Source: Planctomycetes bacterium syqfu | Lineage (GTDB): Bacteria; Planctomycetota; Phycisphaerae; Phycisphaerales; Phycisphaeraceae | Reading direction: 5' to 3' | Assembly: GCA_020974905.1 (NCBI GenBank) | Contig: CP087563.1 | Location: forward strand, 6,014,001 to 6,078,000 | Length of the DNA: 64,000 bases | Part shown: piece after piece, positions 41,779-55,116 of the stretch | Layout of the letters: each line of letters opens with the position of its first letter | How positions within the stretch are numbered: the stretch's first letter is position 1 | Program-made: the position numbers and the translations under genes | The notes under the pieces: generated by a model | Databases searched by the model: none | What the model was told of the DNA's origin: nothing | What the model saw: the letters and a program-made list of their open reading frames with translations, nothing else

Positions 41779-44700
41779 TCAGGCAAACACTTCATACGGG
41801 TTGGCCGTCAACGCGATGTAAGACTCGATCTGCTTGGCAGTCAACGTGGGGTTGGCAGCCTTGAGTAGCGCCGCCACGCCGGTGACCAGTGGGGTGGCAA
41901 AGCTCGAAGCACTCAGTGATGCAAAGCTGCCGCCGAGTCCCGTGGTGTAAATGTTCGTACCGGGTACAACCACGAAGTCCTTGGTTGCAGAGCCTGCCCG
42001 ATTGGACCAACTCGTCAGCGAACCCGATGCATTGATTGCGCCGACTGCGATGCCAGTGCTCGTTGCATACTGAGCTGGATACGCTGGTTCAGATGTGCCA
42101 TCGTTCCCTGCAGCCATCACCACGACCACACCGCGATCCTGAGCATACTTTAATGCATTCTGCAGGTACGGGTGTCCGCCGTTAAAGGTCAGACTCAGGT
42201 TGATCACATCCGCGCCGTTGTTCACTGCGTAGTAAATTCCGTCAAGCACGGAGTAGAAGTCGCCACCACCATAACCATCGAGCACGCGGACAACCATAAT
42301 CTGAGCATCGTAGGCAACACCAATCGCACCCGTGCCGTTGTTCTCTGCTGCGACGACGCCTGCCACATGTGTGCCGTGACCGTTGGTGTCGGTGACGTTG
42401 CTATTGTCATTGACGAAGTTGTAACCGTACACGTCATCGACATAACCATTGCCGTCGTTGTCGATCCCGTCGCCTGCGATTTCGCCGGAGTTAATCCAGA
42501 TGTTGTCGTTCAGATCTGTATGGGTGATGTCCACGCCGGTGTCGATGATGGCAACGACGACACCTTCGCCGGTGACGCCTGCTGACCAGGCATCGGGGAC
42601 GTTGAGCGTGTTCAGCGCGGATTGATTCCCGCCACCGTAATAGGGTTGGGCGGTCAACTCACCGACACCCAAGGCATCGGCAACCGCGGCATTGGCGTCG
42701 ACCAATCCATAACCATATTGACTGTTGTAGGTCGACGTGAAGTCTGATGGGATGTCATCGTAAAGCGTCACGTTCGCGTAATACACATCGGCGTTGGCGC
42801 CGGGGATGTCATGATCGTTGGCAAAGACGATATTGGCAGAATACCCCTGGAAATACTGGCCGACGGGGATGACATAATGCGTCCAGCCGTCCGCGGTGGT
42901 GTAGGTTGCAAAGTCTTCAATGCCGTACTGCTGAGTGCCGAAGACCTGGAAGAACCAATCCGCATCCCCGGCTTCAAGGGAGGTGTCATTGGTGTCAAAA
43001 CCGACGCCTGCGATTTCGCCTTCGATCTTGCCGAAGAAATCAAACTCAAGCACGGTGTACTGGTTGACGTTGTGAGGCAGGGCGACCTTCTGCCATGTAT
43101 TTCCCAGCAGATGCAGTGTCGAACCGTCATACTCGGACGTGGCAACACCATTGCCTTGCTGCTTCGAATCGTATGCGGTGAGATCCGCCGTTGAGAAGTC
43201 AATGGTGTCGACTGCTGCATCCACGGTGGGTGGGTCGGTGACTTGGATGGGGTTGGCATCATACAGTGCGACGTTGGCAAAGTAGCTTTCGCTGACAGGG
43301 ATCGTCACGTCGTTATCCATACCGAATGTCAGGTACGTCACCAAGCCGGTGAAGTACGTGCCGACGGGGATGGCATAATGCACCCAACCGTCATCGCCTT
43401 CTGCGTAGTTATAGTCATCGACGATGTATTGGCCCCAGCTTTGTGTGCCGAAGACCTGGAAGAACATCTCGCTTGAGATCAGATTGTCCGTGTCAAAACC
43501 AATGCCGTGAACTTCACCTTCCGCGGCGGAACGGAAGTCAAATTCGAGCATGGTCGATTCGGTGATGCTGTAACCCAGTTCGATTTTCTTCCAACCATTG
43601 CCAGCGATGTAAAGCGTTTGGCCGTTGTCCATGACCCATTTGACGGAGGTGATGTCCTGGGCCGGATCGTAGGACGTGATGTTCACCGCATCAAAATCGA
43701 TGGTGGTCAGACCCGTCGGGGCAGCCGGGGCGTCGATGGCAACACCGGGTGTGCCTTCGTTGCCACCCCCGCCGGCGTTGGGATTCACATCATAAAGCTG
43801 GATGTTGGCAAAGTAGCTGTTGCCGGTCGGCGTGGCGACGTCATGGTCCATGCCCAGCACCATGTACTGTGTTTGACCGGAGAAGAATCCGCCGATGGCA
43901 ATGGTGACATGCGTCCAGCCGTCTGCGGTGGTGTAGCTGTGATAGTCCTGGATGCCGAAGGTTTGCGTGCCGAAGACCTGGAAGAAGTTTTCGCTGCTCA
44001 GGTAACTGTCATTGTCAAAGCCGATGCCGTGGACTTCACCTTCCGAGTCGGAATAGAAGTCAAACTCCAGCAGGGTGTAGGCGGTGACGTTGTAGTTGAT
44101 ATTGAGTTGTTTCCAGGTGTTGCCTTCAAGAGCGATGACCTGCCCATCTTCCATGACGGTGGCTGTGCCGTTGATGTCCTGCTGCAAGGCGTCATAGCCT
44201 GCAAGGGTGACGGTGTTGAAATCGATGATGGGATAGTCGGTCGGTTCGGTCGGGACGGTGGGCAGGGTCGTGCCTGTGTCGCCTCCGGTGTCTCCTCCGG
44301 TATCGCCACCCGTGTCGCCGCCGGTATCACCGCTACCGGGTTGTATGATCTGGAGATTGCTGAAGTAGCTGATGGCTGTTGGATTGTTGACATCGTGATC
44401 ATTGCCGAAGACAAGGTATTGGTAATTGCCTTCGGGGATTTCGTCGAGTGTGATGGTGTAGTGTTTCCAACCGTCACCGATCGCGTAGTTGTCATACGTG
44501 TCGATGCCCCAATTCTGCGTGCCAAGCAGTTCGTAGATCAATTCGGCGCTGGAGGTTTGGTCGTTGTCAAAACCCAGGCCATGCACTTCGCCTTGCGAAT
44601 TGGAATAGAAGTCAAACGCGATGACGGTGTCAGCCGTCACATCGGTGGGGAGGGTGATGTAACGCCAGACATTGCCGGTGAGTTTGAGCGTGTTGCCTGA

Positions 44701-46008
44701 GTCCAGAACGGTGGATGTGCCGGCATTGACCTGCTTGATGGGATCGAACGCGGAGATGGTGTAGTTGTTGAAGTTGATGTCGGTGGTGGTGGTGTCACTC
44801 CCGGTATCTCCGCCTGTATCTCCGCCGGTGTCGCCACCCGTATCACCCGTTGACGGTTCATAGAGTTGGACATTGCTGAAGGCTGCTGCAGCAGTGGGGT
44901 TGTTCACATCGTGATCATTGCCGAAGACCATGTACTGGATGTAGCCGGTGAAGTATTGGCCGACATGGATGGTGTAATGCTTGGTGCCTTGGGTGGTGGT
45001 GTAGTTGTCGAAGTCCTGAATGCCCCAGTTTTGCGTGCCGAAGACTTTGAAGAACTTGTCGCCACTGAGTCCCAGGTCGTTGTCAAAGCCGATGCCCTGC
45101 ACTTCGCCTTCAGCGGTTGAGGTGAAGTCGAATTCGAGGATGGTGTCCGCGGTGACGTTGTGATTGATGAGCACCTGTTTCCAGGTATTGCCGGAGACCG
45201 AGAGTTGGGCGCCACTGTTGGTGACCGCATAGCTTTGAGTGATGTCCTGGTTGGGGTCGTAGCTGTTGACGGTGTAGTCGTTGAAGTTGATCGAACCGTC
45301 GTCCGTATCATTGCCGGAGTCTCCACCGGTATCACCGCCGGTGTCAGTCGTGTCTTCATAGATGGTGACGTTGGCAAAATAGTTGTTGCCGTTCGCGCCA
45401 TAGACATCGTGGTCCATGCCGAAGGTCAGGTAGTTGAATTGACCGGTGAAGAAATCGCCGACGTTGATGGTGTAGTGTTTCCAGTTGCTGCCGCTGGCGT
45501 CGTATTGGTCGACGCTGGAGATGCCCCAGTCATTTTGTGTGCCGTAGAGTTGGAAGAAGGTTTCAGGGCTGAGAGTGTCGTCGGTGTCGAAGCCGATGCC
45601 GTGGATTTCGCCTTGTTGGGTGGACTTGAAGTCGAATTCAATGACGGTGTTGGCGGTAATGTTGTAATTGAACGCGGTTTTTTTCCAATTGTTACCAAAT
45701 TGGTACAACGTTTGGCCTAAATCCTGCGATTGGGTGTCGCCCGAGACATCTTGATGCGATCCGTTGTAGGAAGTGATGCTTGTCGAATCGAAGTCGACGA
45801 CGATGGCATTGGCAGCGAGTGTGGATTCGGGTGTGACGCTGCTCAGGAGTTGACGGTTCTCCAGGCCATCGACCCACATGTTGCGTCGTGCCGCCAGGTA
45901 GCTGGTTTGCTGCCGGTGTCTGCGTGCCTTGGCGACGGACTTACAGATACGCCGCAATTTGGGCGACACGCGTGTGCGCCAATGATGCCAAAAAAGGTTC
46001 CAGTTCAA
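41779..46008 (-). CDS. Giant secreted subtilase (S8) with six N-terminal beta-repeat modules
   Basis: A 1409-residue extracellular protein. A basic N-terminus carries VDGLENRQLLSSV, a planctomycete surface-protein motif. Six repeats of about 150 residues follow; each has G-N-x-W-K, LEFDF...GEVHGIGFD, a FGTQ-WGI segment, GW-H-Y and FG-DHDV. Linkers are DTGGDTGG-type. The C-terminal peptidase S8 domain has Asp in VAIIDTGVDITHTDLN, His in DTNGHGTHVAG and Ser1369 in SASSFATPLVTG, where GTSMA is the norm. The modules probably bind a polymer or surface; I recall similar modules on marine polysaccharide-degrading enzymes but could not check. The DTGGDT linkers are encoded by tandem DNA at about 44280-44340. 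Confidence 0.88.
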   Translation of the reverse strand: MNWNLFWHHWRTRVSPKLRRICKSVAKARRHRQQTSYLAARRNMWVDGLENRQLLSSVTPESTLAANAIVVDFDSTSITSYNGSHQDVSGDTQSQDLGQTLYQFGNNWKKTAFNYNITANTVIEFDFKSTQQGEIHGIGFDTDDTLSPETFFQLYGTQNDWGISSVDQYDASGSNWKHYTINVGDFFTGQFNYLTFGMDHDVYGANGNNYFANVTIYEDTTDTGGDTGGDSGNDTDDGSINFNDYTVNSYDPNQDITQSYAVTNSGAQLSVSGNTWKQVLINHNVTADTILEFDFTSTAEGEVQGIGFDNDLGLSGDKFFKVFGTQNWGIQDFDNYTTTQGTKHYTIHVGQYFTGYIQYMVFGNDHDVNNPTAAAAFSNVQLYEPSTGDTGGDTGGDTGGDTGSDTTTTDINFNNYTISAFDPIKQVNAGTSTVLDSGNTLKLTGNVWRYITLPTDVTADTVIAFDFYSNSQGEVHGLGFDNDQTSSAELIYELLGTQNWGIDTYDNYAIGDGWKHYTITLDEIPEGNYQYLVFGNDHDVNNPTAISYFSNLQIIQPGSGDTGGDTGGDTGGDTGGDTGTTLPTVPTEPTDYPIIDFNTVTLAGYDALQQDINGTATVMEDGQVIALEGNTWKQLNINYNVTAYTLLEFDFYSDSEGEVHGIGFDNDSYLSSENFFQVFGTQTFGIQDYHSYTTADGWTHVTIAIGGFFSGQTQYMVLGMDHDVATPTGNSYFANIQLYDVNPNAGGGGNEGTPGVAIDAPAAPTGLTTIDFDAVNITSYDPAQDITSVKWVMDNGQTLYIAGNGWKKIELGYSITESTMLEFDFRSAAEGEVHGIGFDTDNLISSEMFFQVFGTQSWGQYIVDDYNYAEGDDGWVHYAIPVGTYFTGLVTYLTFGMDNDVTIPVSESYFANVALYDANPIQVTDPPTVDAAVDTIDFSTADLTAYDSKQQGNGVATSEYDGSTLHLLGNTWQKVALPHNVNQYTVLEFDFFGKIEGEIAGVGFDTNDTSLEAGDADWFFQVFGTQQYGIEDFATYTTADGWTHYVIPVGQYFQGYSANIVFANDHDIPGANADVYYANVTLYDDIPSDFTSTYNSQYGYGLVDANAAVADALGVGELTAQPYYGGGNQSALNTLNVPDAWSAGVTGEGVVVAIIDTGVDITHTDLNDNIWINSGEIAGDGIDNDGNGYVDDVYGYNFVNDNSNVTDTNGHGTHVAGVVAAENNGTGAIGVAYDAQIMVVRVLDGYGGGDFYSVLDGIYYAVNNGADVINLSLTFNGGHPYLQNALKYAQDRGVVVVMAAGNDGTSEPAYPAQYATSTGIAVGAINASGSLTSWSNRAGSATKDFVVVPGTNIYTTGLGGSFASLSASSFATPLVTGVAALLKAANPTLTAKQIESYIALTANPYEVFA

Positions 46009-47255: not shown

Positions 47256-48566
47256 TTACAGCTTCACGTCTTGAGGCGATGCATTGGGCGATTGGTTGGA
47301 TACGCGTCCGCGAATGATGGCGACGGTGGTTTTGAGTGATGCTGAATAAGCAAGCAAACCAAACGCCCATATACCCGCGGTGATTTTCCATTCGGTAATG
47401 GTGGGGGTGTATTCGACGACTTCGTGGAGTGTGCTGGGGATAAAACCGGGAATGATCAGGCCCATGCCTTTTTCGATCCAGACAGCAATGAACACCATCA
47501 CACACGCAGCCTTGATCCAGTTGGCCCGTTTGGAGAGTCCGGGAGAAAGCAGCACGATGGCAGCGATGATGTTCAGCGCGACAGCGGTCCAGATCCATGG
47601 GACCAGGGCATCTTTGCCATGGAGTCCGAAATACAGGTATCTCGCCGAAGCGGTGTGCGCGGTACCCGAGTAAAACTCGGTGAACATTTCACTGATGACC
47701 ATCAGCAGGTTGATGCAGATGGTGACACGCAGAATCTGCAGCAGGGTCTTGATTGCCTTTTCACTGACCGGCAGGTCGGTTAATCGTCGGAGTATGTAAA
47801 GCGTGAGAATGATGAATGCCGGCCCGGAGACGAATGCCGAAGCCAGGAAGCGCGGAGCAAGCAAGGCCGAGTTCCAAAGCGGACGACCACCCAGACCACA
47901 ATACAAAAACGCGGTGACGGTGTGAATGGATATCGCCCAGAAGACGGAGATGAACACGACAGGGATATAAAACCGCGCTTCGGGTTTGCGGCCCTGAAAC
48001 CGCGTGTATAGCAGGTATCCGCAGATATGCAGGTTAATCAGCAGGTATCCGTTAAGCACGATCACGTCCCAAGTGAGCATGGAGATCGGGAAGTTAAATC
48101 GCCCGATAAACGGCATGAGATGCCAGAAGCGTTCGGGATGCCCCAGGTCCACGGTGACAAAGAGCAGGCACATGATGATTGATGCGATCGCCAGTAACTC
48201 ACCGACGATCACCACGTCGTGCATATCGCGATCATGATAGAGATAGGCCGGGATCACCATCATCACACCGCCTGCTGCCAGTCCGACGATGAAGGTGAAG
48301 TTGGCAATGTACATGCCCCAACTCACGTGGTCACTCATGCCGGTGACCGCCATGCCATTGGTGATTTGATGACTCCAGGCTGATAAACCCACGAGTGTGA
48401 CGGCAGTGAGAAAAATCATCCAGGCATAAAACAGGGGACCGCCGTCGGTGGCAGCGCAAAAACATTTCCAGAGAAACTTGGGATAGGTCACCAGGTGACG
48501 GTGCTGGCTGTGTTCCAGTTCATGACCGGCACTGGGATGCGTTGGAGTGGTGGGTGTTTGGGACAT
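47256..48566 (-). CDS. NrfD/PsrC-like quinone-interacting membrane subunit
   Basis: A 436-residue polytopic protein with about ten helices (for example GPLFYAWMIFLTAVTLVGLS, SWGMYIANFTFIVGLAAGGV, VDLGHPERFWHLM). The V-D-L-G-H-P-x-R segment is typical of the NrfD/PsrC family, which exchanges electrons with the membrane quinone pool. It follows an iron-sulfur protein and a tetraheme cytochrome in one minus-strand operon, forming a module like NrfBCD or QrcACD. The start at 48566 has AGGA upstream. I infer menaquinol oxidation feeding the divergent Nap enzyme. Confidence 0.88.
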   Translation of the reverse strand: MSQTPTTPTHPSAGHELEHSQHRHLVTYPKFLWKCFCAATDGGPLFYAWMIFLTAVTLVGLSAWSHQITNGMAVTGMSDHVSWGMYIANFTFIVGLAAGGVMMVIPAYLYHDRDMHDVVIVGELLAIASIIMCLLFVTVDLGHPERFWHLMPFIGRFNFPISMLTWDVIVLNGYLLINLHICGYLLYTRFQGRKPEARFYIPVVFISVFWAISIHTVTAFLYCGLGGRPLWNSALLAPRFLASAFVSGPAFIILTLYILRRLTDLPVSEKAIKTLLQILRVTICINLLMVISEMFTEFYSGTAHTASARYLYFGLHGKDALVPWIWTAVALNIIAAIVLLSPGLSKRANWIKAACVMVFIAVWIEKGMGLIIPGFIPSTLHEVVEYTPTITEWKITAGIWAFGLLAYSASLKTTVAIIRGRVSNQSPNASPQDVKL

Positions 48567-48632
48567 GAGAAATCCTGTTTGGCTTTGAAAGCGATGATGC
48601 ACTGCTAAACCGCAAGCGGTTTTCAAGGGTGA

Positions 48633-49601
48633 TCATTCGTCAAAGTAGTAAAAGAAACTCGGTTGCGTGCCCAACTCTTCCTTGAGCATGAACACGCGCT
48701 TGTTGGCCAGAACCCAGCGGATTTCACTATCCGGGTCCAGCAAATTGCCGAACACGCGGGCACCGGTCGGGCAGGCTTCCAGACAGGCGGGCAGGCGACC
48801 ATCACGCACGCGATGCAGACAGAAGGTGCATTTTTCCATGACACCTGCCGGACGCATGCGGTTGGAGAGATAGCCTTGATCGGGGTTGATTTGATCATCG
48901 GGGACCGTGGGCGCTTTCCAGTTGAATCGACGGGCGTGATACGGGCAGGCCGCTTCACAGTAGCGACAACCGATGCACCAGTTGTAGTCCACGACGACAA
49001 TGCCATCCTTTTCTTTCCAGGTTGCTTCGACGGGGCAGACGTCAACGCAAGGCGGATTATCGCATTGCTGACACTGCACCGGCATGTAGAACTTGTCGTC
49101 ATCAGGAACCGGGTGTGTGTAGGTGGTCGAGCCTTTTTCCATGTCCATCGAACCGCGCTTCATCTCCAGCACGCGGATGTAGGACTGGTTACTTTCGCGG
49201 TCGTGATTGTTTTCCTTGTGACAGGCACGCATACATTCACCGTTGCCATTACATACAGACAGGTTGATTGCATAGCCGTACTTGACACCATCAAGGGGTG
49301 GCAGGTCGCGGATGGTCACATCCACGCCGTGCTTGGCTTTGGTTTCGTCTTGCAGGCGATTGATGACGGCAGCACGTTCGTCGCTGTCCAGTTCTTTGTA
49401 ATGTCGCTGAAGCATTTCTTCGGGTGACATCGATGCGTACTTATCGATCATCGGTTTGGCAGCAGTGCCGAAGGCAGCGATGCCCAGTGTCGCGCCGAAA
49501 GCTTTGAGTGCCGTGCGACGTGAGATATGGCCGATCACCGGCAGGGAGACGGTCTTGCCTGCCGTGTCTTGCGTATTGTTGTCTTGAACTTCCGGGGGCA
49601 T
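48633..49601 (-). CDS. Tat-exported 4x Fe-S electron-transfer subunit (HybA/NrfC-like)
   Basis: A 322-residue periplasmic ferredoxin-type subunit. A Tat motif ISRRTALKAFG (residues 26-36) precedes the hydrophobic core. Four cluster motifs: Cys117/(Asn120)/Cys123/Cys127, Cys177/180/185/189, Cys209/212/215/219 and Cys258/261/273/277. The second ligand of the first motif is Asn120 instead of Cys, so that site may hold a 3Fe-4S cluster. It is translationally coupled (TAATG) to the cytochrome upstream and precedes the NrfD-like gene, consistent with carrying electrons from quinol toward heme. Confidence 0.9.
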   Translation of the reverse strand: MPPEVQDNNTQDTAGKTVSLPVIGHISRRTALKAFGATLGIAAFGTAAKPMIDKYASMSPEEMLQRHYKELDSDERAAVINRLQDETKAKHGVDVTIRDLPPLDGVKYGYAINLSVCNGNGECMRACHKENNHDRESNQSYIRVLEMKRGSMDMEKGSTTYTHPVPDDDKFYMPVQCQQCDNPPCVDVCPVEATWKEKDGIVVVDYNWCIGCRYCEAACPYHARRFNWKAPTVPDDQINPDQGYLSNRMRPAGVMEKCTFCLHRVRDGRLPACLEACPTGARVFGNLLDPDSEIRWVLANKRVFMLKEELGTQPSFFYYFDE

Positions 49602-50305
49602 TAGTGGCTCGCTTCCGTTTGATGGTCGCTTGGATGAGGTGTGTCCATGAAGCGGTCGAGTGGTTTGAATTGAGGGAGCATTTTCGGCATTGCCGGACTG
49701 TGCGGGTCATGGCAATCGATGCACGCTTTGCGTTGGCGGGGCCCCTTGGACAGGTCCCAGTGACCGGTCATTCCACCGTGAGCACCATGCTGATAATCGT
49801 TGTACCGACTTTGGTGACACTGGGCACAAAGCTGCATGACATTGGGATAACTGACTGCCGAACCGTCCGCCTTTTTGAGCGTGTCATAGTCCTTGGGATT
49901 GTGGCAACTCAGACACGACAGGTCGCCGTGCGCCATGGACAGATTCTGATGAAATTCATCGAGATCGTCCGAGGTGACGTTTTTGTAATCAGGTTCGCGG
50001 GTGGCATGACAGGTGGTACATGACACCTCAATGGCATGGCCCGAACCATTGGGATCGGCAACCAGTACTTTGGGCGGACCCTCGGGCACGCTGATGGTTA
50101 CCGGATGCTGTTGATTGACTTGTTTTACCGTCAATTCGGTTGGCGATGGATCATGCTCATTACCATAACTGATGGGTGATGGTCCACGTACAACTGTGAC
50201 CATGAGCCAGGCTAAGAGCAGGATAATCAGAATGATCACGCCAATGGCAGGTCCCCAGGAACCTCTGTGGCGTGACACCTTCGGCGGGTGTGGATCAGAA
50301 GACAT
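49601..50305 (-). CDS. Membrane-anchored tetraheme cytochrome c
   Basis: A 234-residue protein. A single N-terminal helix (AIGVIILIILLLAWLMVTVV) anchors it, followed by a periplasmic domain with four CxxCH sites: Cys96-His100, Cys131-His135, Cys160-His164, Cys195-His199. It is not a NapC/NirT by sequence pattern (those have the heme cluster right after the anchor); here about 50 residues intervene. It is the first gene of the cytochrome/Fe-S/NrfD operon and divergent from napD. It is the probable electron exit to the Nap heme subunit. The ATG at 50305 is used over TTG 50311. Confidence 0.88.
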   Translation of the reverse strand: MSSDPHPPKVSRHRGSWGPAIGVIILIILLLAWLMVTVVRGPSPISYGNEHDPSPTELTVKQVNQQHPVTISVPEGPPKVLVADPNGSGHAIEVSCTTCHATREPDYKNVTSDDLDEFHQNLSMAHGDLSCLSCHNPKDYDTLKKADGSAVSYPNVMQLCAQCHQSRYNDYQHGAHGGMTGHWDLSKGPRQRKACIDCHDPHSPAMPKMLPQFKPLDRFMDTPHPSDHQTEASH

Positions 50306-50339
50306 ATTCAATTCTCGGAGTCATGAGGTGTTGCAATAC

Positions 50340-50369
50340 TGGATAAAATATAATAAAATTTTTTTATCC
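50340..50369. promoter_or_regulatory. Palindromic site in the divergent nap promoter
   Basis: GGATAAAA (50341-50348) and TTTTATCC (50362-50369) form an exact inverted repeat. The left part, TGGATAAAATAT, closely matches TGGATATAAATAT in the perfect palindrome at 57606 beside the NO reductase gene, pointing to one regulator for both. Confidence 0.5.
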
Positions 50370-50378
50370 TGTAAAGGT

Positions 50379-50397
50379 TTGCCTTGAAAATAGGCAA
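50379..50397. promoter_or_regulatory. Inverted repeat TTGCCT-N7-AGGCAA in the nap promoter
   Basis: An exact 6-7-6 repeat, 51 bases upstream of the napD ATG and 73 bases from the divergent cytochrome start. It is placed to act as an activator or repressor site. It does not match the FNR consensus (TTGAT-N4-ATCAA). Confidence 0.45.
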
Positions 50398-50448
50398 TAT
50401 TAAAAGTCCACCGCCACCGCCAACAACGACTGCAGATTGGAACACCTC

Positions 50449-50754
50449 ATGCCAATTAGCGGACTGATTCTTACATTGTGTAGCGACTCAAAGGCTGCTC
50501 AATCCGCCATTCTCAAATGTCATGAAGATCCCCGGATCGAGGTCGGCGAATTCGTCGGCCTGCGTCGTTGTCCGATCACATTGACCACGCAAAGCCAGGA
50601 AGAAGACAAGGCCTGTTGGCAGGCGCTGCAAGCTGATCCCGGCATTGATCATGTCGATGTGGCATGTGTGTTTTTTGATGATGACCAGGCTGATGACTCC
50701 CCGAAGCAGGCAACTGTCGATGACTCGGACAGCACGCTTGCCCAAGCCCAATGA
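50449..50754 (+). CDS. napD: Nap chaperone NapD
   Basis: A 101-residue cytoplasmic chaperone that binds the Tat signal of NapA during cofactor insertion. The ferredoxin-like fold is seen in ISGLILTLCSDSKAAQSAIL, PRIEVGEFVG and IDHVDVACVFFDDD, with an acidic C-terminal tail. The start at 50449 (MPISGLIL) aligns with the family. napA follows after 16 bases, the usual napDA order. Confidence 0.85.
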   Translation: MPISGLILTLCSDSKAAQSAILKCHEDPRIEVGEFVGLRRCPITLTTQSQEEDKACWQALQADPGIDHVDVACVFFDDDQADDSPKQATVDDSDSTLAQAQ

Positions 50755-50770
50755 TCTGGAGATTTCCTTT

Positions 50771-53245
50771 ATGTCCACGCTCCAATTGGACCGCCGCCGT
50801 TTTCTCAAGAGCGTTGCCATGGCCACCGCCACCGCCGCTGCTCACGAGAGTTTTGCCGCCACAAGCAACAACGTACCGTTACCACTGCTCGATCCGCAGG
50901 TCTCCGACCCGCCGTCAATCGATGGTGTGACTTGGGACAAAGCACCTTGTCGATTCTGTGGCACGGGTTGTCATGTCATGGTCGGCACCAAAGACAACCG
51001 TGTCGTCGCAGTAGCAGGCGATCGGCATGCCCCTGTCAACAAAGGCCTGCTTTGTGTCAAAGGCTACCACGTCGGTTCGATTCTCTACGGCAAAGATCGT
51101 CTGACCAAGCCGCTACTCAAAACCGACACCGGTTATAAAGCCATCAGTTGGGACGAAGCGATCCAGGTCATTGCCAAACGCGTTACACGCAATCCCAAGG
51201 GTTTTGCGATTTACGGTTCAGGTCAATGGACCATCCCCGAAGGCTATGCCTGTCAGAAGTTCATCAAGGGTGGATTGTCCAACAATCACATCGATCCCAA
51301 TGCACGCCTGTGTATGGCTTCTGCGGTCACCGGTTTCATCGGCACCTATGGCGTGGATGAGCCTGCTGGTTGCTATGACGATCTGGATGTTGCGGATGTG
51401 ATCATCACTTGGGGCAACAATCCTGCTGAGATGCACCCGGTGCTTTTCAGTCGCTTCATCGACCGCCGCAGTCGCGGTGAAAAAGTCACCCTCATCGACA
51501 TCGGCACACGTCGGACCCGCACCACCGAACTGGCCAACGAGTATCTCTGCTTCAAGCCGCACACCGACCTGGCCATTGCCAACGGCATCATGCATCAACT
51601 CATTGTCAATGAGACCTACGACAAACAATTCATTGAAAAACACTGTAATTTCCGCAAACAAGTCGATCCGCACAAGCCGACGCTTAAAGGCGCTCCCAGT
51701 ACGTTTGAGGATTTCAAACAAGCCGTTGCTGAGTACACACCCGAAAAAGTCGAAGAAATCTCCGGTGTCCCTGCGGAAAAAATCGTCCTGCTGGGCAAGC
51801 TCTTCGGACAACGCGATCTGCGCATCACCAGTCTCTGGTGCATGGGTATGAACCAGCACTCGGCAGGCACGATGATCAACAACCTCGTCCACTCCGTGCA
51901 CCTTCTCTCCGGTCACTTCGGTAAACCCGGTGATGCGCCCACCTCACTGACCGGCCAACCTTCAGCTTGCGGCACGGCCCGTGAAGTCGGGACGTTGGCG
52001 CATGCGTTACCCGGTGGCCGACTTGTTGCCAAGGACGCACATCGTCATGAAACTGAAGACCTATGGAACCTGCCACGCGGCCGCATGAATCCCAAGCCCG
52101 GTTATCACACCGTCAAAATGTGGGAGTCGATCTGCACACCCACCCATGAACCCGGCGGCGAAGTCGATACCATCTGGGTCCAGGTCACCAACCCCGGTCA
52201 GACCCTGCCCAACCTGCACAAGCTCTTTGACCGCAAGGACGATCTCAAGGACAAATTCCTCATCGTCTCCGATGTCTATCCCACCGCGACCACGCAACTG
52301 GCGGACCTGATTCTGCCCTCTGCCATGTGGGTTGAAAAGAACGGCATTTTCGGTAACTCCGAACGCCGCACCCAGCAATGGTTCCGTCAGGTCACACCAC
52401 CCGGCGATGCCCGCGATGACTGCTGGCAGGTTATTGCTGTTGCCCGTGCACTATTTGACATGGGTTTTGAAGGCATGAAAGACAAGGACGGCAAGTTCCT
52501 TTTTCATCCCCAATCGCTTGATGAAAACGGCAATGAAATCCCCATCTGGCAGTGGGAGCATTACTACGGCAAGGTCAATGTCGATAAAACCATCTTCGAG
52601 GAATACCGCCAGTTTTCCCGACTTAAACACAAAGACCTCGCACCTTATGACGAATACGTCAAAGCACGTGGTCTGCGTTGGCCGGTCGTCGAACAACCCG
52701 ATGGTACCTGGCGCGAGACCGGCTTCCGATTCTCCGGCTTTGATGATCCTTACGTCCGCAAGGGACCTGATGGCAAACCCATGGATATCGATTTCTATCA
52801 CTCGACCACCAGTGACGGCAGGGCACAGGTCTGGCATTACCCATACATTGATCCGCCGGAGATGCCCGATGACCAGTATCCGTTCTGGCTTTGCACCGGG
52901 CGCGTGCTCGAACATTGGCATTCGGGCACGATGACGCGGCGCGTCCCGCAACTGGCCCGGGCCGTCCCACGCAGCTATGTCGAGATTCATCCCGATGACG
53001 CACGAGCAGCCAACATCGGTAACGGCAGGTTGGTCAAAATCGAATCCCGGCGTGGCAGCATCGTTTTACCAGCTCGAATTAACGGGCGTGGTCAACCGCC
53101 ACGCGGCTCCATCTTCGTCCCGTTTTTCGATGAGACCAAACTGATTAACAATGTCACACTCGATGTCACCTGCCCCATCTCCAAGGAGCCGGATTACAAG
53201 AAGTGTGCTGTGCGAATCAGTGTCGCATCCAGTAGCAGGGGGTGA
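50771..53245 (+). CDS. napA: Periplasmic nitrate reductase, large subunit NapA
   Basis: An 824-residue molybdoenzyme reducing nitrate to nitrite in the periplasm. Tat signal DRRRFLKSVA (residues 7-16); one 4Fe-4S cluster by Cys60, Cys63, Cys67 and Cys95; molybdenum ligand Cys181 in ARLCMASAVTGFIGTYGVDE, which is diagnostic of NapA. Bis-MGD domains follow, including VTNPGQTLPNL and WLCTGRVLEHWHSGTMT. GGAG lies nine bases before the ATG. Length matches the family. The heme subunit follows after three bases. Confidence 0.96.
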   Translation: MSTLQLDRRRFLKSVAMATATAAAHESFAATSNNVPLPLLDPQVSDPPSIDGVTWDKAPCRFCGTGCHVMVGTKDNRVVAVAGDRHAPVNKGLLCVKGYHVGSILYGKDRLTKPLLKTDTGYKAISWDEAIQVIAKRVTRNPKGFAIYGSGQWTIPEGYACQKFIKGGLSNNHIDPNARLCMASAVTGFIGTYGVDEPAGCYDDLDVADVIITWGNNPAEMHPVLFSRFIDRRSRGEKVTLIDIGTRRTRTTELANEYLCFKPHTDLAIANGIMHQLIVNETYDKQFIEKHCNFRKQVDPHKPTLKGAPSTFEDFKQAVAEYTPEKVEEISGVPAEKIVLLGKLFGQRDLRITSLWCMGMNQHSAGTMINNLVHSVHLLSGHFGKPGDAPTSLTGQPSACGTAREVGTLAHALPGGRLVAKDAHRHETEDLWNLPRGRMNPKPGYHTVKMWESICTPTHEPGGEVDTIWVQVTNPGQTLPNLHKLFDRKDDLKDKFLIVSDVYPTATTQLADLILPSAMWVEKNGIFGNSERRTQQWFRQVTPPGDARDDCWQVIAVARALFDMGFEGMKDKDGKFLFHPQSLDENGNEIPIWQWEHYYGKVNVDKTIFEEYRQFSRLKHKDLAPYDEYVKARGLRWPVVEQPDGTWRETGFRFSGFDDPYVRKGPDGKPMDIDFYHSTTSDGRAQVWHYPYIDPPEMPDDQYPFWLCTGRVLEHWHSGTMTRRVPQLARAVPRSYVEIHPDDARAANIGNGRLVKIESRRGSIVLPARINGRGQPPRGSIFVPFFDETKLINNVTLDVTCPISKEPDYKKCAVRISVASSSRG

Positions 53246-53248
53246 TCC

Positions 53249-54097
53249 ATGAGTGAGAAAAGCCCTGAAAATAAAGATGCAAATCAGCCCGTCGTCAGTT
53301 CAAATGCTGCAACGGTGATTTTGTTCATCGTCATTGCCATTGGCGCGGTCGGTTATCTGGTTGGTATCCGTCATGCTTCTCGCGTTCAACAAACCGAGCA
53401 TCCGGTTCATCTTGCCATGCAGGAAACCAGGCAGCAAAATCAGGTTGACCAGGTTCAACTTGCGATGATGTACAAGCAAATTCGCGATGGTAACCTCGGC
53501 CCCAATGTGAATTGGAAAACGGTTGTTGAACCTCATTTGATTGCCTCGCCTCAAATCACGCCGACAAGCACTCCGGAGTATGGCGGAGATAAGACGCAGG
53601 CGTTGGCCAAGCGTGATGCGCGGCGCGCCTACAACGGAGCACCGCCAACCATTCCCCATGCGATTCCTTCAACTTCGGTTCAGGCATGTAGTGTCTGTCA
53701 TGGTGAAAACGGCCAATCACTTCGTATTGGTAACCAGGTGATCGCGCCTCCAATCCCCCATGAAAAGTACACCAATTGCACGCAGTGTCACGTGCCACAA
53801 AATCCAGTGACCGACGACGAGCAGCATTGGCTTGATAATAGCTTTGCCGGTGTTCAAACGCCAAAGCAAGGTGAACGTGCTTATACCGGTGCGCCGCCGA
53901 CCATCCCACATTCGGTGTGGATGCGCGAGAGTTGTATGAGCTGTCATGGCCCCAATGGTCAGTCGGCATTACGATCCGGTCACGTTTGGCGGACGAATTG
54001 CTTACAATGTCATGGACAGTCGGCCACGTTAAACCAGTTTGCCGGCGAGAATCAGTTTATTGAACCCAACTTCAAACTCCCTGCCGCCGATGAGTGA
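53249..54097 (+). CDS. Tetraheme NapB-like cytochrome (tandem duplicated diheme module)
   Basis: A 282-residue electron-transfer subunit for NapA. NapB normally has two c-hemes and about 150 residues. Here a membrane helix (residues 21-40) and an extra region precede two NapB-like units, each starting RAY-x-GAPPTIPH: unit 1 with Cys147-His151 and Cys177-His181, unit 2 with Cys229-His233 and Cys251-His255. The strong similarity of the units points to internal duplication. The anchor is an uncleaved signal or true tether. Overlap of eight bases with the next gene shows tight coupling. Confidence 0.85.
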   Translation: MSEKSPENKDANQPVVSSNAATVILFIVIAIGAVGYLVGIRHASRVQQTEHPVHLAMQETRQQNQVDQVQLAMMYKQIRDGNLGPNVNWKTVVEPHLIASPQITPTSTPEYGGDKTQALAKRDARRAYNGAPPTIPHAIPSTSVQACSVCHGENGQSLRIGNQVIAPPIPHEKYTNCTQCHVPQNPVTDDEQHWLDNSFAGVQTPKQGERAYTGAPPTIPHSVWMRESCMSCHGPNGQSALRSGHVWRTNCLQCHGQSATLNQFAGENQFIEPNFKLPAADE

Positions 54098-54800
54098 GAA
54101 GCCAGACCAATTCAGTCGCCGCGATTTTCTGCGTGGCAAGATCCTTGGACGATTTGTCGATGTGAGTACGCGCGGACTTCAATCCAAGGGTGAACAGATC
54201 GCCAAAGCCGCTGCCCACTACGCAGCACCTGCGCATGCAATCGAACCAGCCAGAGAAACACCACGTCAGCAGCGCACGCGGTCGTTCCCGGTGATTCGCC
54301 CTCCGGGGGCGGTGGATGAAGCAACCTTTCTGGAAAAATGCACCCGTTGTGGAGACTGCATTACCGCTTGCCCACATGATGCGATCACGTTGGCTCCAGC
54401 CAGTTTTCGCAATGCGGCAGGCAGTCCCATGATCAACGCTGCCGATGCGCCCTGCCTGATGTGCGAGGATTTTCCGTGCATTGATGTGTGTCCTGAGGAT
54501 GTGCTTTTACCCCTTGAAACAGGGCATAAACACAAGATTGCCGATGCGCGGATACTTGATTACAACTGTCTGAATCGACACGGGCACGCTGCAGAGCATT
54601 GCACGATTTGTATCGAACAATGTCCTGAGGAAGGTGCACTGATCGTTGAGGATGGTATGCCCCGTGTGGACAATGACAGATGTACTGGCTGCGGGATTTG
54701 TCACTATGCCTGCCCAGCCCCAACCAATGCTGTTGCAATGATGCCGTTGCAGCAGCGCCCCATTGTCTTGACGATCGGAGAGACGCCCGATGACGGATGA
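54090..54800 (+). CDS. NapF/NapG-like ferredoxin-type protein
   Basis: A 236-residue protein with four Fe-S motifs: CTRCGDCITACPHDA (Cys84/87/90/94), CLMCEDFPCIDVCPED, HCTICIEQCPEEG and CTGCGICHYACPAP. The N-terminus has FSRRDFLRGK, a Tat-like pair but with a weakly hydrophobic core, so either cytoplasmic (NapF, NapA maturation) or exported (NapG, quinol electron flow). NapH is absent, which favours a NapF-type role. It overlaps the cytochrome upstream by eight bases and the next gene by eleven. Confidence 0.8.
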   Translation: MSEKPDQFSRRDFLRGKILGRFVDVSTRGLQSKGEQIAKAAAHYAAPAHAIEPARETPRQQRTRSFPVIRPPGAVDEATFLEKCTRCGDCITACPHDAITLAPASFRNAAGSPMINAADAPCLMCEDFPCIDVCPEDVLLPLETGHKHKIADARILDYNCLNRHGHAAEHCTICIEQCPEEGALIVEDGMPRVDNDRCTGCGICHYACPAPTNAVAMMPLQQRPIVLTIGETPDDG

Positions 54801-55116
54801 TTCGCAGCAAGAGCCCCTGGAAACCATGACCGCGATGATTGATCACGGTGAGTTGGTGTCACTGTTTCGTGATGTGGCTGCGTTGGCCAAGGTCATCGGT
54901 GTGAACGTCAAGGGGCCTGCCATGTCACCCAATGCCGATGCGTATCGTGCGGACTTGCCCGAAGCATTGCAACTGCTCGAATCCGGCAGGGCACGTGGTG
55001 TGCAATTACGCTATCAACACAATGACAGTCTCTGGATGGATACACTCAGTCCCACCACGCATGAAGATCAATGGCAGTTGGTACGCATTCAACATCGTCT
55101 CGATGACGGAGGCTGA
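54790..55116 (+). CDS. Hypothetical protein at the end of the nap operon
   Basis: A 108-residue cytoplasmic-looking protein not recognised. It has an acidic start (MTDDSQQEPLETM), a helical part (VSLFRDVAALAKVIGVNVKG, PEALQLLESGRARGVQLRY) and no cysteines or signal. It overlaps the NapF/G-like gene by eleven bases and is followed by a terminator, so it is the last gene of the nap transcript and probably a Nap accessory. Function cannot be stated. Confidence 0.65.
   Translation: MTDDSQQEPLETMTAMIDHGELVSLFRDVAALAKVIGVNVKGPAMSPNADAYRADLPEALQLLESGRARGVQLRYQHNDSLWMDTLSPTTHEDQWQLVRIQHRLDDGG

Follow-up and report, generated by a model that had tools for sequence, protein, structure and literature searches.

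In a 64,000-nucleotide stretch of the genome of Planctomycetes bacterium syqfu (contig CP087563.1, positions 6,014,001 to 6,078,000; hereafter the window), the genes for a periplasmic nitrate reductase (Nap) stand beside a three-gene module coding for a tetraheme cytochrome c (cytX), an iron-sulfur (Fe-S) protein and an NrfD-family membrane subunit. We propose that this module quite probably serves Nap here as quinol dehydrogenase, in place of both NapC and NapGH, with one or other of which Nap is usually described. On the best reading of the sequence comparisons presented here, it would join these two as a third type of quinol dehydrogenase for Nap. The window comes from a genome assembled as a single contig of 7.38 Mb (95.8% complete by tool estimate), and a preliminary description of the window had placed cytochrome, twin-arginine translocation (Tat) Fe-S and NrfD-like genes next to napD, napA, napB and a napG-like gene; in the list of open reading frames (ORFs), all eight ORFs of 47256–55116 were found where it had put them and were of the kinds it had named. 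They form two divergent halves: (i) on the minus strand the module, with cytX followed by the Fe-S and NrfD-family genes; (ii) on the plus strand, up to 55116, napD, napA, napB, the napG-like gene and a 108-amino-acid ORF (Table 1).

The module had earlier been likened to parts of the Nrf and Qrc complexes; its Fe-S and membrane proteins turn out to be DsrO/DsrP-like instead. The membrane subunit scores 433 bits to the NCBIfam DsrP model (cut-off 350), as against 45.2 to QrcD (cut-off 570) and 30.8 to NrfD (cut-off 347.6). The DsrP model is matched by 22 of the 22 members of the alignment of this query protein (A4, from which L003 and L044 were left out for stops or a frameshift; L and G numbers denote loci and genomes), and ActC of the same genome reaches only 63 bits to it. 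For the Fe-S protein the best family is DsrO at 196.8 bits, just under its cut-off of 200, followed by QrcC (167; cut-off 400) and NrfC (122; cut-off 377.6); both placements are made from NCBIfam scores and not from reference sequences of true sulfate reducers. As read from the sequence, the membrane subunit probably starts at an internal ATG (MSQTPTT...), and the Fe-S protein, matched by several Fer4 families, bears a Tat-like SRRTALK motif. Its first cluster motif, CNGNGEC, has the second Cys replaced by Asn. Among the 80 loci introduced below, CNGNGxC is the first Fe-S motif in 22 (e.g., L008, L010 and L030) and the Cys is retained in 40, with 18 unscored by the pattern. The change may point to a [3Fe-4S] cluster, or to one with another ligand, within a subgroup of planctomycetes.

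Together, the two cytochromes conserve eight heme motifs and as many candidate distal histidines. In cytX there are four CXXCH motifs (residues 98, 133, 162 and 197), and across 28 aligned sequences His is invariant at exactly four other positions (121, 128, 178 and 204), a match in number that fits the expected bis-His coordination of four hemes. A helix is predicted at residues 21–41, at the N-terminus; the AlphaFold model (mean predicted local distance difference test score, pLDDT, 77) was used solely for this helix and gave no Foldseek match at E ≤ 0.001 and no VIA-align match at Z ≥ 2. NCBIfam offers cytX no clear equivalent, its matches being to general multiheme families only; DsrJ is absent among them, the existence of a DsrJ model in NCBIfam being unchecked. 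We also considered cytX as a hidden NapC and rejected this: it scores 22.6 bits to PF03264, below the cut-off of 24.1, and its alignment gives a distinct pattern of its own, the cytX of strain ZRK32 only just reaching the cut-off at 24.1 bits. In NapB the segment RAY[NT]GAPPTIPH, with two CXXCH after it, is present twice, giving four CXXCH in total, and 25 aligned sequences share exactly four further invariant His (137, 171, 221 and 245). The protein looks like two copies in tandem of the diheme NapB pattern, and four CXXCH are found in 44 of 45 NapB ORFs, the remaining one being cut at a contig end. The AlphaFold model of NapB is poor (pLDDT 54).

The catalytic subunit is assigned to NapA, the bis-MGD enzyme with a Cys ligand, if slightly below both family thresholds (895 bits to PRK13532, cut-off 904; 857 to TIGR01706, cut-off 930.55): phmmer matches it to the solved NapA 2nya_A with an E-value of 2.4e-214, and it aligns with 2nya and 3ml1, including the Cys of CMASA, which we take to be the molybdenum (Mo) ligand. 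Its probable start is the ATG at 50771, with a Tat signal, and that of napD is the ATG at 50449, both read from the sequence. The window's NapD itself has no Pfam match, and two relatives in the same position score 26.5 and 26.8 bits to Pfam NapD (cut-off 28). The napG-like product reaches 110 bits to the NapG model (cut-off 269); because tblastn recognized no copy on the nap side of several nap loci, we place this ferredoxin outside the core set. The small terminal ORF has tblastn matches (E up to 1e-3) in 27 of the 80 loci and no meaningful family match.

The association of the module with nap extends well beyond the window. A scan of one genome per species returned 267 relatives of the membrane subunit, and the best 80 of these 267 were counted. 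The Fe-S gene adjoins the membrane subunit in all 80 loci and cytX in 75, the other five lying at contig ends. We divided them into a close clade of 52 loci (Fe-S score at least 390 bits, plus the cut loci L004 and L017; the Fe-S ORFs of L011 and L051 were ignored for wrong frame assignment) and a sister clade of 28. In the close clade, drawn from Planctomycetota, Verrucomicrobiota and Myxococcota, napA is present in 44 of 52 loci, at a distance of 0.3–2.9 kb in 42 and of 4.4 and 6.8 kb in L032 and L037, which bears out the earlier claim that the three genes travel with nap. Seven of the eight close-clade loci without napA reach a contig end upstream (L048 still with napD), and the eighth, L015, has an octaheme cytochrome upstream. 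In the sister clade, nap is found in 8 of 28 loci, an octaheme cytochrome in 9 and both in 4; the octaheme protein is PF13447 in all three cases tested. On a tree of 93 rows, made by a quick method, linkage to nap is clustered, with 14 changes against a shuffled mean of 30.4 and none of 500 shuffles as low, a signal to which near-copies contribute; the sister clade comprises 31 of the 93 rows (support 93, not starred), and long branches, L084, L085, L088, L101 and L104 among them, are flagged as possibly false joins. Two of these, the planctomycete loci L084 and L085, hold a distant DsrOP-like pair (Fe-S 37–38% and NrfD 40–41% identity), with no adjoining cytochrome gene seen.

In L010, L023, L027 and other loci the module and nap run on a single strand. 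A further case comes from plasmid p1 of the isolate Flammeovirga kamogawensis (Bacteroidota; L104), where napD, napA, a tetraheme napB, a tetraheme cytX, the Fe-S gene and nrfD are collinear; its NapA passes both NapA models (947 bits against a cut-off of 930.55, and 983), and its NrfD-type subunit scores 405 bits to the DsrP model (cut-off 350). It was followed up from a plasmid tblastn search that matched 15 records, the others being haloarchaeal at 25–36% identity. Thus, the nap-module pairing is found in four bacterial phyla. As a separate observation, L073 (3762–12721) and L100 show a long run of napA, napG, napH, cytX, Fe-S, nrfD and octaheme genes, apparently a cassette for the conversion of nitrate to ammonium in which two types of quinol dehydrogenase are combined.

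Co-occurrence throughout Planctomycetota, which the preliminary description had put forward as a check, holds for only part of the phylum. In a sample of 294 planctomycete genomes of at least 90% completeness, with napA called when the best piece reached at least 500 bits, 42 have napA and 22 of these have a module match 1.7–2.8 kb away (one of them, G143, resting on a fragment at a contig edge). Module copies of at least 710 bits occur in 18 genomes and adjoin napA in 16; in one of the other two, G085, the module lies at a contig start. Seven copies of 644–692 bits also have napA near (G042, G277, G098, G126, G136, G194 and G029). Sixteen of the 20 napA genomes that lack the module exceed the TIGR01706 cut-off, and in the eight such loci inspected (L089–L094, L102 and L103) an octaheme gene adjoins napA in L089–L092 and L103, and a four-motif NapB is present in five (L089, L091, L092, L102 and L103). 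Four of these, L089, L091, L092 and L103, combine the octaheme protein and a four-motif NapB with a NapA that in three of the four exceeds the TIGR01706 cut-off, and PF03264 has no match beside them; judged by these gene sets, they are a second planctomycete Nap type.

As the preliminary description had it, the window's cluster contains neither NapC nor NapH. Nor did the neighborhood of nap reveal any other dedicated quinol dehydrogenase. With PF03264, for which an E. coli control was positive, the genome of the window yields a single match (G000:C1:6988890; L001), which scores 156.7 bits to the NrfH model (cut-off 134.2); the gene after it codes for a cytochrome c552/NrfA (504 bits), and since the genome has this nrfH-nrfA pair, nitrate can probably go on to ammonium. 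A napC elsewhere, which if co-expressed with nap would by the preliminary description have refuted its reading, was looked for and not encountered for the close clade. Among the 22 genomes with module and napA, 11, most of them drafts, have no match to this NapC/NrfH-family model, nine have it in a four-heme protein beside NrfA, i.e., NrfH, and two (G123 and G138) within a 7-heme protein. For the wider survey, 32 stretches were fetched from these 22 genomes and from 18 genomes behind other loci; it covered neither the PF03264 matches of module-less napA genomes nor those of G014 and G294 (two sub-cut-off matches in the former, two in the latter), G305, G306, G307 and G310 (one weak match each), G126 and G136 (beside the module) and G036 and G297 (on cytX itself), and L123 (two motifs, contig end) was left unclassed. 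It gave 22 four-heme ORFs of 163–350 amino acids, 21 of which adjoin an NrfA-like five-motif gene (PF02335 in both tested). Over 45 genomes, only G231 and, weakly, G020 show PF03264 matching less than 2 kb from a full-size napA that is not of the module type, and none of the 45 passes the NapH cut-off of 213 bits. The best NapH score in the 22 genomes, 74 bits, does not come from the contig with napA; in the genome of the window the scores are 66 and 39.5 elsewhere, and 25.7 for the napG-like gene itself. NapH-like scores of 174 and 160 bits appear only in G126 and G136, which have a sister-clade module and a weaker NapA.

If the module does feed Nap, we envisage the following path. Menaquinol would be oxidized at the DsrP-like membrane subunit, and its electrons would pass to the Fe-S clusters of the DsrO-like protein and on to the four hemes of cytX; from there they would reach the four hemes of the duplicated NapB and finally NapA, which with its [4Fe-4S] cluster and Mo site would reduce nitrate to nitrite. 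The order of transfer, the direct contacts, the quinone used and any energy coupling are all inferred by analogy with the NrfD family, as set out in the available text of one account (PMC8076601).

Several observations weigh against the proposal that the module replaces NapC and NapGH. The 20 module-less genomes make up nearly half of the 42 with napA. In G194, a high-scoring copy (L096) lies beside a lone napB, about 32 kb from napA, a second copy adjoining napA, and 13 copies of 625–694 bits (in 12 genomes and on a second G143 contig) have, by eye, no NapA of at least 149 bits within contig reach. Sister-clade loci are without nap in 20 of 28 cases, and 15 have neither nap nor an octaheme gene, some flanks being short; thus the earlier concern that the operon might occur mostly apart from nap does not apply to the close clade, where the module is nap-bound, and applies in part to the sister clade, where it stands beside octaheme cytochromes or unidentified partners. 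The four-heme NapC/NrfH protein of L108 is cut by a contig end with its neighbor beyond view, and three Myxococcota genomes (L114, L116 and L118) encode, within other multiheme clusters, a NapC/NirT-family protein with three motifs. The absence of a DsrK match and of a true DsrA (best 25.9 bits, cut-off 392.85) from the genome of the window, in which the Dsr-like module thus occurs without sign of sulfate reduction, speaks for the proposal, with the limit that neither search had a positive control above cut-off among 14 control genomes. Finally, this genome encodes an Alternative Complex III, through which electrons might also pass from quinol to periplasmic cytochromes.

The first of the alternatives takes the module as a general quinol:multiheme adapter, with Nap as one client among octaheme nitrite-reducing or other partners. 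The octaheme genes next to the sister-clade modules, some also with nap, speak for it, whereas in the close clade L015 is the sole locus of 52 with one nearby; we hold it possible, if doubtful, and it complements the quinol dehydrogenase proposal without contradicting it. An unlikely alternative is that soluble cytochromes feed Nap with electrons drawn from quinol by Alternative Complex III or a different cytochrome c reductase, and that the module has a separate task, e.g., in the nitrite or nitric oxide (NO) step. The only other NrfD-family protein of the genome adjoins an ActD gene and belongs to Alternative Complex III, genes for NO handling (NnrS and a NorB-type reductase) lie downstream of the cluster, and nitrate respiration of Campylobacter jejuni is coupled to the menaquinol-cytochrome c reductase Qcr, according to the accessible part of PMC6195509. 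This is hard to square with a module-nap linkage that is tight, recurrent and at times collinear, and in which NapG and the octaheme protein vary while the module and napA/napB stay constant.

A supply of Nap by NrfH, a NapC-family protein encoded beside NrfA elsewhere in the genome, in addition to its service to NrfA, would have a parallel in CymA, which serves several reductases in Shewanella. The nine genomes with NrfH, that of the window included, would allow it; we judge it very improbable given the 11 genomes without any member of the family, albeit mostly drafts, and the direct adjacency to an NrfA-like gene of 21 of the 22 four-heme members from other genomes. That two unrelated systems are neighbors by chance, as their opposite strands in the window might suggest, is refuted by the napA adjacency in 44 of 52 close-clade loci and by collinear runs, the pairing recurring in several phyla, and its probability is negligible.

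Compared with known systems, the quinol dehydrogenase proposed here is closest to DsrMKJOP, which supplies the best NCBIfam families for the membrane subunit (DsrP, over the cut-off) and for the Fe-S protein (DsrO, just under it) and in which a cytochrome, a Tat Fe-S protein and an NrfD-type subunit are arranged alike. It differs in its partner, NapAB, in a genome without DsrK match or true DsrA, and in the four CXXCH of cytX against three hemes in DsrJ as given in the available text of PMC8076601. The position in the pathway, from quinol to NapB/NapA, is that of NapC and NapGH; at the window's nap, however, no NapC or NapH was found, the NapG-like ferredoxin is without NapH, and NapB is tetraheme and duplicated rather than diheme. 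In NrfABCD, too, a cytochrome, an Fe-S protein and an NrfD-type subunit feed a periplasmic N-oxide reductase, but the NrfD and NrfC scores are low and the terminal enzyme here is a Mo enzyme. QrcABCD likewise joins Fe-S and NrfD-type subunits to a multiheme cytochrome, with QrcD and QrcC scores below cut-off and an opposite expected direction of electrons.

In the literature, a 2023 paper reported an MHC-4Fe4S-nrfD-actD cluster downstream of Nap in the planctomycete metagenome-assembled genomes (MAGs) OFTM8 and OFTM33 and suggested a role in respiratory electron transfer (PMC10732223). It may be the same module, although it has an actD, of which none was seen in the window; the available sections of that paper connect it neither to Dsr nor to a missing NapC. 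The accessible text of PMC5276818 describes, in the sulfur-disproportionating thermophiles Thermosulfurimonas dismutans and Dissulfuribacter thermophilus, an 11-gene nap cluster with a four-gene locus (two cytochromes, an NrfD-family protein and a 4Fe-4S protein), for which a part in nitrite reduction or in sulfur metabolism was suggested there. There too an NrfD-type module with cytochrome and Fe-S protein sits inside a nap cluster; compared by description only, it differs in occurring with napMADGH and so with NapGH. Nap without NapC is known from Wolinella and from Nitrospirae Nbg-4 (available part of PMC5812927), there with NapGH. Two further cases, seen in excerpted sources, were set aside: cable bacteria, where nap and dsrOP are apart (PMC10926707), and Deferrivibrio, with an nrfD operon lowered under nitrate (PMC11896075). 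Our full-text literature search, whose coverage excluded most subscription papers, found no proposal of a DsrOP-type module as a Nap quinol dehydrogenase in the titles, abstract openings and passages it returned.

Table 1. Features of the nap-module cluster, in window positions
Feature	Position	Strand	Evidence
NrfD-family integral membrane subunit, DsrP-like, putative menaquinol site	47256..48626	-	Pfam NrfD 145.7 bits; NCBIfam DsrP
Tat-exported Fe-S protein, DsrO-like	48633..49601	-	NCBIfam DsrO 196.8 bits, cut-off 200
cytX, N-terminally anchored tetraheme cytochrome c, predicted bis-His	49601..50311	-	CXXCH, invariant His, predicted helix
Divergent intergenic region module/nap, 125 bp	50312..50436	.	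contains GGATAAAA..TTTTATCC palindrome
napD, chaperone	50449..50754 (ORF opens 50437)	+	position; tblastn matches in relatives
napA, periplasmic nitrate reductase catalytic subunit	50771..53245 (ORF opens 50645)	+	NapA models, 2nya_A match
napB, internally duplicated, tetraheme	53249..54097	+	Pfam NapB 41 bits; 4 CXXCH
napG-like ferredoxin, accessory, not universal; start probably internal	54039..54800	+	NapG model 110 bits
Small conserved ORF of unknown function adjoining nap, 108 amino acids	54790..55116	+	tblastn matches in relatives

The palindrome in the spacer between module and nap (50341–50369; GGATAAAA..TTTTATCC) was considered as a shared regulatory element and dropped, being not intact in the nearest relative, the Phycisphaeraceae MAG L002, whose NrfD-type protein is 96% identical to that of the window. 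Its pattern gives one match in the window against 0.01 expected and five sites in the genome against two for a reversed control pattern, and no comparable palindrome was found in the other divergent module/nap spacers of less than 1.2 kb that were scanned. Downstream of the nap cluster, a gene for an Rrf2 regulator accompanies those for NnrS and the NorB-type NO reductase. Elsewhere in the window, a 1409-amino-acid protein (41779–46008) has repeated stretches and a C-terminal subtilase domain.

The family assignment bears on annotation as well. The NCBIfam DsrP model (NF045798) labels the nap-linked NrfD-type subunits of the window (47256–48626) and of L104 (9040–10257) as sulfate-reduction proteins, and the public NCBI name of the Flammeovirga gene is 'sulfate reduction electron transfer complex DsrMKJOP subunit DsrP'. 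Such labels could yield false sulfate reducers in surveys, of which annotators should be warned. The gene set is open to experiment, since it is present in named isolates, Flammeovirga kamogawensis and Adhaeretor mobilis being cultured carriers.

Since the same module adjoins octaheme cytochromes in the sister clade, its distribution suggests a reusable electron-delivery adapter for different periplasmic N-oxide reductases. More tentatively, and with the odds against it, we entertain an energy-conserving DsrOP-type module of Dsr-related origin, translocating charge during menaquinol oxidation and serving as a cassette for Nap and octaheme nitrite reductases in at least four phyla; the available text of PMC8076601 presents NrfD-type subunits as proposed ion translocators with a predicted quinone site and proton half-channels. 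Were this so, periplasmic nitrate respiration would be electrogenic in these bacteria, unlike in the NapC route.

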